Assembly: GCA_012519925.1 (NCBI GenBank)
Contig: JAAYPF010000042.1
Coordinates: 1-40,065, forward strand
DNA length: 40,065 nt
Source: Clostridiaceae bacterium
GTDB lineage: Bacteria > Bacillota > Clostridia > Acetivibrionales > Acetivibrionaceae
Direction of reading: 5' to 3'
Part shown: piece after piece, positions 173-26,258 of the stretch
Layout: the number at the start of each line of letters is the position of its first letter
How positions within the stretch are numbered: position 1 is the stretch's first letter
Notes under the pieces: model-generated
The model's database searches: none
Told to the model about the DNA's origin: nothing
Seen by the model: the letters and a program-made list of their open reading frames with translations, nothing else
Position numbers and translations under genes: made by a program

Positions 173-234
173 AATAAAAACTCCGGGGCGTAGAGCCCTC
201 TGTTTTTGCCTCTTTTACTTCGTTCGAAAGAAGC
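173..234 (-). repeat. family 1 repeat, copy A (stem-loop fused to terminator-like hairpin)
   Basis: This stretch is nearly identical to 26152-26215: a 33-base block (202-234) and a 17-base block (173-189) are shared, apart from one extra A in copy B, while the 12 bases between them (190-201) differ. Read on the minus strand it has a 5-bp stem GCTTC/GAGGC (234-230 with 212-208) around a 17-base loop, then a second hairpin closed by AAAAAC/GTTTTT (207-202 with 181-176) ending in a T tract like an intrinsic terminator. A diverged copy lies in inverted orientation at 283-345. I do not recognise it as a known RNA class. Confidence 0.7.
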
Positions 235-242
235 TTAATCCT

Positions 243-277
243 AAAAGACGCGGCTTATAATAATAAGCCACGCTTTT
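243..277. terminator. central hairpin between inverted family 1 copies
   Basis: A 14-bp stem with one bulged A (243-257 with 264-277), loop TAATAA, bounded by AAAA and TTTT, so it could terminate transcription in both directions. It sits at the symmetry centre (about 259) of the inverted pair 173-234 / 283-345. Copy B of the repeat at 26152-26215 also has such a hairpin 7-8 bases away. Confidence 0.6.
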
Positions 278-282
278 ATTAC

Positions 283-345
283 GCTCCCTAGAATGAAATG
301 AAAGGAGCAAAAACGAAGGGGTTCGATACCCTTTCGTTTTTATTA
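283..345 (+). repeat. family 1 repeat, diverged inverted copy C
   Basis: On the plus strand this reads like the minus strand of copy A: stem GCTCC/GGAGC (283-287 with 304-308), a 16-base loop sharing GAAyGAArT-like sequence with copies A and B, then AAAAAC/GTTTTT (309-314 with 336-341). In the 5-bp stem two base pairs differ from copy A yet pairing is kept (T-G to T-A, T-A to C-G), which argues for selection on RNA structure. Its second half doubles as the gdhA terminator. Confidence 0.5.
309..341 (-). terminator. intrinsic terminator of gdhA (bidirectional)
   Basis: Bases 309-320 pair with 329-341 around an 8-base loop, with one bulge. The stem is flanked by A and T tracts on both strands. 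It begins 18 bases after the gdhA stop codon on the minus strand. Confidence 0.85.
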
Positions 346-358
346 TAGACGTTCAAAA

Positions 359-1711
<1,353 letters not shown>

Positions 1712-18782: not shown

Positions 18783-18822
18783 AGGGAACTCTATAGTTCC
18801 CTTCAACGGATGCTTCGCATCC
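18783..18822. other. two tandem small hairpins before family 2 repeat copy 2
   Basis: AGGGAACT/AGTTCCCT with loop CTAT (18783-18802), then GGATGC/GCATCC with loop TTC (18808-18822). They lie directly before family 2 copy 2 and are absent before copy 1. They suggest a structured RNA, of no class I know. Confidence 0.5.
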
Positions 18823-18838
18823 TAGGTTGCATAGACAA

Positions 18839-18957
18839 GCGGTGTAGCGTAGCGAAACGACCAGCCTGAGCACCCTCCTTAAACCGGGAGAGGGGAATCC
18901 CCTTTCCAAACCCCAATATAGAAATTTACAAAAATAGCTTTTTATAAATTCCTATAC
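18839..18957 (+). repeat. family 2 repeat, copy 2 (upstream flank of rnf operon)
   Basis: Same orientation as copy 1 at 13444-13565; core 18846-18937 matches 13455-13546 at 83 of 92 positions by my count. The central hairpin is kept as GGAGAGGGG/CCCCTTTCC, with a G-T pair where copy 1 has A-T. The outer TATAGAAATTTA/TAAATTCCTATA stem is kept with one mismatch. Together the two copies form direct repeats about 5.4 kb apart around the six rnf genes. Confidence 0.8.
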
Positions 18958-26151: not shown

Positions 26152-26215
26152 AATAAAAAACTCCGGGGCATCGATTTCATCCGTTTTTGCCTCTTTTACT
26201 TCGTTCGAAAGAAGC
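26152..26215 (-). repeat. family 1 repeat, copy B
   Basis: Shares the 33-base block (26183-26215) exactly with 202-234 and a 17-base block at 26153-26169 with 173-189, while the 13 bases between (26170-26182) differ. On the minus strand it lies just beyond the tRNA-Arg terminator; on the plus strand it lies beyond the GT39 gene. The stem GCTTC/GAGGC and AAAAAC/GTTTTT pairs are kept. Confidence 0.75.
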
Positions 26216-26222
26216 GTAAATG

Positions 26223-26258
26223 AAAAGGCTCTTAGAATAAATATTCCAAGAGCCTTTT
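26223..26258. terminator. terminator of tRNA-Arg (bidirectional)
   Basis: Perfect 11-bp stem (26223-26233 with 26248-26258), loop of 14 bases, flanked by A4 and T4. On the minus strand the stem begins at the last base of the tRNA CCA end. Confidence 0.85.

Follow-up and report, generated by a model that had tools for sequence, protein, structure and literature searches.

Group IIC introns are described as inserting right behind the hairpins of intrinsic terminators, in the T-tract, and the substrate reported for Ta.it.I1 is a stem-loop followed by TTTTTTATT (PMC7161350). Among dispersed repeats, SPRITE from Streptococcus pneumoniae has a terminator-like hairpin and AAAA/TTTT ends and is enriched at the 3′ ends of genes; it consists of one 18-bp duplex and a long U-rich tract, and its authors found no comparable empty site (PMC3049150). 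REP/BIME elements and REPINs are short structured extragenic repeats with a species-specific consensus (PMC3116915), IS200/IS605-derived PATEs insert next to a short T-rich site, on its 3′ side, duplicate no target sequence and have hairpin ends (PMC7290912), and MITEs, BOX and RUP are small non-autonomous repeats (PMC3049150).

Here, we describe non-coding “post-terminator elements” of about 65 bp, which very probably spread by insertion at the T-tracts of existing intrinsic terminators. They resemble each of the above systems in the features just named, but differ from all of them. Whereas the introns are ribozymes with a reverse transcriptase (RT), the element measures 65 nt, has no coding capacity and no group II match (domain V), and brings its own terminator-like end. 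Going by SPRITE’s description, the element is set apart by its two hairpins, its arrays and its insertion behind a pre-existing terminator. Unlike REP/BIME elements and REPINs, it does not occur in inverted doublets, has no consistent Y1 transposase gene and lands specifically at terminators; unlike PATEs, it has no related full element that we recognised, and Y1 genes were not found in two copy-rich genomes; and in contrast to MITEs, BOX and RUP, it lacks terminal inverted repeats, with ACGC... at one end and ...TTTTTATT at the other, and shows no clear duplication of its target. No description of the repeat was found in the literature, judged by titles and abstract openings, and within the literature searched the family is undescribed. 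RepRanger includes A. clariflavus among its genomes and filters out terminator-like palindromes (PMC12306157).

The window, i.e., the whole stretch of 40,065 nt analysed, is the start of a contig in a 3.91-Mb draft genome, referred to below as the source genome. The 3′ end of its glutamate dehydrogenase gene gdhA (359–1699, minus strand; Pfam ELFV_dehydrog, 2.5e-94) is the landing site of two copies of the repeat, both recognised by sequence and covariance model. Copy A, of subtype I (CTTTCGAACGAAG on the loop side; 173–235, minus strand), reads from 235 to 173 as a stem GCTTC...GAGGC and then AAAAAC...GTTTTT, and copy B, of subtype II (TAGAATGAAATG on the loop side; 281–344, plus strand), as GCTCC...GGAGC and then AAAAAC...GTTTTT. 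Between these oppositely oriented copies lies a third hairpin centred near 260, identified by folding, empty sites and a scan as the bidirectional intrinsic terminator of gdhA (243–277), where A and B landed. Every part that an earlier sequence-only reading had described for 173–345 was found at its position. That reading named two stem pairs as differing between the arms with pairing kept; in one of them both bases change (U-A to C-G), in the other a single base does (U.G to U-A). Folded as RNA, copy B reaches −25.2 kcal/mol (z −4.8), and the hairpin in the centre has z-scores of −4.3 on one strand and −4.5 on the other; copy A alone folds weakly (z −1.25, with 22 of 200 shuffles equally good). 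A simple scan marked terminator-like sites on the plus strand in the gdhA terminator and in copy A, and on both strands in copy B. The third copy invoked by the same reading exists as copy C (26152–26217, minus strand; sequence and covariance model), directly behind the terminator hairpin (26223–26258, minus strand; read from the sequence) of a tRNA-Arg gene, its landing site. Elsewhere in the window, 18796–18921 (minus strand) matches the Clostridiales-2 RNA (RF02937) above the gathering score.

Comparison with congeners separates these parts. In G001 and G002, which belong to the same genus, the gdhA stop codon is followed by one bidirectional terminator hairpin and by neither copy, and the covariance model of the repeat (R1) had no match at E ≤ 1 at the gdhA locus of either genome. 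The hairpin that the sequence-only reading had taken for the linker of an inverted pair is therefore gdhA’s own terminator, present without repeats in both congeners, and A and B are two insertions; positions 173–345 comprise the host terminator and two elements that are independent of each other, rather than a single element. For this finding the locus is decisive: each copy landed behind one of the terminator’s two U-tracts.

Further empty sites were found in related species. In A. straminisolvens (G013), a tandem pair of copies (L230:9817–10234, minus strand) lies right behind the terminator of a T-box leader and before the genes for serine acetyltransferase (cysE) and cysteinyl-tRNA synthetase (cysS); the T-box match at this place has 87 bits (E 2.6e-19), short of the gathering score of 93. 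Both copies are missing in G004 and G008, a second site in the same region has a copy in G013 and G004 and none in G008, and site L233:7518 is empty in G004 and G008. When 67 flanked copies from A. straminisolvens, A. mesophilus and the MAG DTU079 were compared with 1.2 Mb of G008, both flanks aligned for 17, which read as 14 distinct sites. The element motif was absent from the whole G008 span at all 14, and a homologous terminator-like hairpin stood at the junction at 13, 11 of them found by script and two by eye (L245 and one of two in L246, where the script had picked another hairpin); the remaining site, L359, has no clear homologous terminator. Within the 1.2 Mb, the best R1 score was 27.2 bits (E 0.011), leaving nothing below E 0.01, and over all of G008, with 80 candidates scored, the model had no match at E ≤ 0.001. 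With terminators standing at the empty junctions, the terminators precede the insertions.

Landing behind terminators also holds in the source genome at large. Fully flanked copies that are solo or first in an array number 129, and in 81 of them the T-tract is immediately preceded by a terminator hairpin with 6 bp or more. Among control T-tracts, which were TTTTNTT sites elsewhere in about 0.6 of the 3.9 Mb, 104 of 2000 (5%) passed this strict test, as did shuffled flanks in 31 of 645 cases. Inspection by eye showed several of the 48 failing copies to follow terminators with weaker stems or longer loops, and others to follow none. In the sister-genus species, 51 of 61 copies passed a script with slightly wider limits, compared with 178 of 2000 control sites in G008 (9%). 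The element lies on the strand of its terminator and starts 7–10 nt past the stem in 53 of 72 measurable copies (those with G or C before the T-run among 92 source-genome copies tested). Its boundaries follow from edge profiles: the left edge reads TTTT(T)ATT followed by ACGC, with a near-background profile upstream of the T-tract (50 subtype-I copies, arrays included), and the right edge reads GTTTTTATT, then background (90 copies without a following copy). For 104 of the 129 copies the called gene upstream shares the strand of the element, at a median distance of 85.5 nt, and 9 of 143 copies overlap a crude ORF call. A target duplication of three or more bases is unsupported in 54 solo copies, whose left and right T-tracts do not covary at one variable position (a value equalled or exceeded by 885 of 1000 shuffles); their likeness is borderline at the next position (56/1000), so that a very short duplication may exist, and with arrays included it is slightly above shuffled (1/1000). 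The description of the repeat as “terminator-fused” is right in that a terminator-like hairpin is carried, but is better replaced by insertion behind an existing terminator.

The unit consists of a T-tract followed by ACGC(T/C)TCTT(TC)GAACGAAGTGAAAGAGGC, AAAAACGAAGGGGCTCGATGCCCCGTAG and TTTTTATT, and folds into two hairpins. Hairpin A has 7–9 bp and a conserved GGAAYGAARTGA-type loop, and hairpin B is GGGRC-TCGAT-GYCCC within AAAAAC/GTTTTT or AAAAGC/GCTTTT, in the source genome a GGGGC/GCCCC stem inside AAAAAC/GTTTTT; the right end is TTTTTATT or TTTTATT. Two subtypes differ in stem A and in one loop base. In relatives the loop is kept and the stems are changed, with stem A being GCCTCTT/AAGAGGC in A. 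straminisolvens, A. mesophilus and DTU079, and AAGTCTT or AAGACTT with AAGACTT in A. alkalicellulosi, where all seven pairs form in only one of six counted copies and at least six in five of the six. RNAalifold on the first alignment found hairpin B only, because the subtypes differ by one loop base, and hairpin A was therefore counted by a script that allowed two offsets, for shuffles likewise. Across 133 distinct copies (of 200, the other 67 being duplicates or without the loop motif), its arms pair at 6.27 of 7 positions versus 5.79 when shuffled, a value reached by none of 500 shuffles. Hairpin B shows two-sided changes at all five inner pairs (26 sequences) and a covariation of 0.291 versus 0.163 shuffled (0/500); four of five measures were reached by none of 500 shuffles and the fifth, further pair types, by 51, where for both hairpins the shuffles leave the relatedness between copies in place. 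Within the Acetivibrio group, both stems covary between species around a conserved loop, which agrees with the structural constraint and compensatory changes of the earlier reading and favours a real family.

In consensus form, hairpin B has a folding energy of −15.6 to −18.4 kcal/mol and is terminator-like; its U-tract pairs with the A-tract, and an internal loop often separates off the GC stem. Over 102 real copies the median is −10.9 kcal/mol, against −15.2 in the preceding host stretch. An origin of hairpin B from a tRNA T-arm (TTCGAT loop) was considered and rejected as a resemblance only. In agreement with the absence of a named family from the sequence-only reading, the Rfam 15 covariance models gave no gathering-score match over any copy in the window and 44 loci with copies.

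The copy number is far above chance. A first pattern scan of the source genome gave 101 matches versus 70 for the reversed pattern, with an extended consensus flanking most of the 30 loci fetched, and the R1 model, built from 22 copies, gave at least 147 matches at E ≤ 0.1 among 150 candidates scored. This bears out the expectation of further genomic copies, though not in the expected REP/BIME-like layout of an inverted pair around a linker: among 143 copies extracted (four weak, truncated or contig-edge matches were left out), 116 are solo, the arrays are 12 pairs and one triple, and the neighbours within 150 bp include 15 same-orientation pairs (13 with a period of 63–66 bp) and only three inverted ones. 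In the searches of the family, of genomes outside it and of the class, filters were strict and few candidates were scored per genome. Nine of the 14 family members, the source genome included, have matches, ranging from 7 to at least 80 (at least 147 in the source genome), and five have none, one of these only 55% complete. Outside the family, three of 46 genomes have one marginal match each, and in a class-wide sample five of 291 have matches at E ≤ 1e-4, four of the same family and one other with two weak ones. An exact pattern scan of named genomes gave no match, and 84 stretches matched a second pattern. One of the two weak class-wide matches, in the middle of L386 and so in another family’s genome, may be a distant relative; its hairpin B is nearly intact, and it lies upstream of a start that is EF-Tu-like by eye.

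Some copies retain only their 5′ half behind a terminator. Copies with the 5′ hairpin alone, each behind a terminator by eye, include C6:3712, C137:12681, C218:38633, C99:2519 and C121:2046 of the source genome, and degenerate copies within a larger repeated stretch, with similar flanks, are at C19:2707, C111:7264, C142:17443, C167:9951 and C241:11742. A longer autonomous version, sought via half-copies in about 0.6 of the 3.9 Mb of the source genome, was not seen, the halves being isolated with no flanked gene noticed.

A second repeat, R2, has a sequence unrelated to the 65-bp element and spans about 125 bp (TTTCTAAGAAAGTGCATTG...GGGGCGTAGCCCCTTTTGTT). It occurs at L186:1470–1604 and 17 other places in the source genome with an identity of at least 93%, a level reached by 18 of 29 matches; by eye it stands behind a terminator at 10 of 11 left edges, and it is sometimes stacked with the 65-bp element. 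A decayed R2-like stretch follows copy C in the window (26151–26100, minus strand; by eye), and a third, longer repeat downstream of the 65-bp repeat at L034 and L047 combines the left end of R2 with another body.

We propose that the element inserts at a terminator T-tract, typically 7–10 nt past the stem, on the same strand and with no clear target duplication. As its right end is again a hairpin with a T-tract, each insertion restores a terminator-like end and thereby a new landing site, which leads to tandem arrays. Recognition may act on the hairpin together with its T-tract, either in single-stranded DNA or close to the 3′ end of the transcript, and movement may depend on a trans-acting factor or on T-tract-guided template switching. 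The effect on the host is probably small, because the insertions mostly sit past the stop signal. Judging from the pair between the T-box and cysE-cysS, RNA polymerase may be able to read through the element, provided that there is no promoter downstream.

The terminator-targeting miniature mobile element family is real: insertion, targeting, edges, stem covariation and spread across the family are all shown, and no mobilising gene was found among the two gene families searched. The Y1 transposase (PF01797) had no match in G002 (100% complete, 54 element matches) or G013 (87% complete, at least 80), and the RT (PF00078) had none in G006 (99% complete, 36) or G010 (90% complete, 39), so that neither, occurring in less than every copy-rich genome, was retained as a common mover; with G013 at 87% and G010 at 90% completeness, a mover gene may have been lost or missed. 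This distribution is one point in favour of movement without a transposase, in which a replication fork stalled at a terminator would switch template via the shared TTTTATT to an element-carrying terminator, copy the element and switch back at the right T-tract. The T-tract microhomology at both ends, the solo copies without clear target duplication, the 5′-half copies as an early switch-back would leave them, the tandem arrays with a one-unit period and the unrelated R2 likewise behind terminators all fit, but a preference for element-carrying donors would be required, the dominance of one consensus per species resembles active amplification, and the mover search covered two gene families only; we regard this route as rather improbable. 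A little less probable still is a non-autonomous element of the single-strand HUH/Y1, IS200/IS605-like kind, such as a PATE, for which the missing clear target duplication, the retained T-rich left site, the hairpins near both ends and the target-like right end would speak. Such end and target features are habits of IS200/IS605 elements. Y1, however, is without a match in the copy-rich G002 and G013, and the Y1 elements of the source genome (L031–L033) have ends that differ from the repeat by eye.

Mobilisation in trans by the RT of a terminator-targeting group IIC-type intron draws on the known insertion of IIC introns, as described, at intrinsic terminators, and on group II introns in G002 and G004 (L280 and L283; D1D4-3 matches) that start, by eye, behind a hairpin and T-tract; PF00078 is nevertheless without a match in G006 and G010, no group II family is among the Rfam matches of the 44 loci and the window, and we consider this explanation decidedly unlikely. 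The conserved loop, the covarying stems and the terminator-like fold of consensus hairpin B would also suit a functional RNA maintained by the host, a backup terminator or 3′-end stabiliser selected at each gene. Against this, the tested sites are unshared, with the gdhA copies missing in congeners and the element at 14 of 14 sites in G008, a terminator is usually already there, and five of the 14 family members (one only 55% complete) have no match, which makes host maintenance very unlikely. REP/BIME or REPIN elements moved by a RAYT transposase share small size, extragenic position, structure and high copy number with the repeat. A GTAG-type tag is a further feature of REP elements, and none was seen by eye. 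R1 had no match on the three contigs that carry the Y1 genes of the source genome. The rarity of inverted doublets (three pairs), the lack of a consistent Y1 gene and the tie to terminators weigh against this reading, the least probable of those considered, and the copy organisation together with the missing Y1 genes in copy-rich G002 and G013 led us to reject REP/BIME.

Targeted insertion of a mobile element at terminators remains the preferred reading. For a non-coding parasite it would be a safe-harbour strategy, where landing past stop signals avoids damage and the rebuilt signal keeps the site reusable. The element would explain the repeat-rich 3′ ends of Acetivibrio-type genomes and offers many presence/absence sites for studying the invasion of hairpin-plus-T-tract DNA outside introns, while the tandem pair at cysE-cysS in A. 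straminisolvens would allow a direct test of whether transcription reads through the element. A broader possibility, which we put forward tentatively and hold to be less than even, is that terminators are a universal landing pad and boundary for a distinct class of miniature mobile elements, with insertion about where the terminated transcript should end and with R2 using the same pad; terminator-directed integration would then be a general route and not an intron speciality.

Other elements in the clade adjoin similar structures. Group-II-D1D4-3 introns seem to start right behind hairpins at L280, L283 and L279 (in G002, G004 and G003), each with GTGTGCC, which we take to be the start motif of group II introns; those in G002 and G004, by eye behind a hairpin and T-tract, indicate that targets of this kind serve further elements of the clade as well. 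Matches to the RT-5 and RT-14 RNAs adjoin reverse transcriptase genes at L198:1127–1228 and L285:1120–1275.
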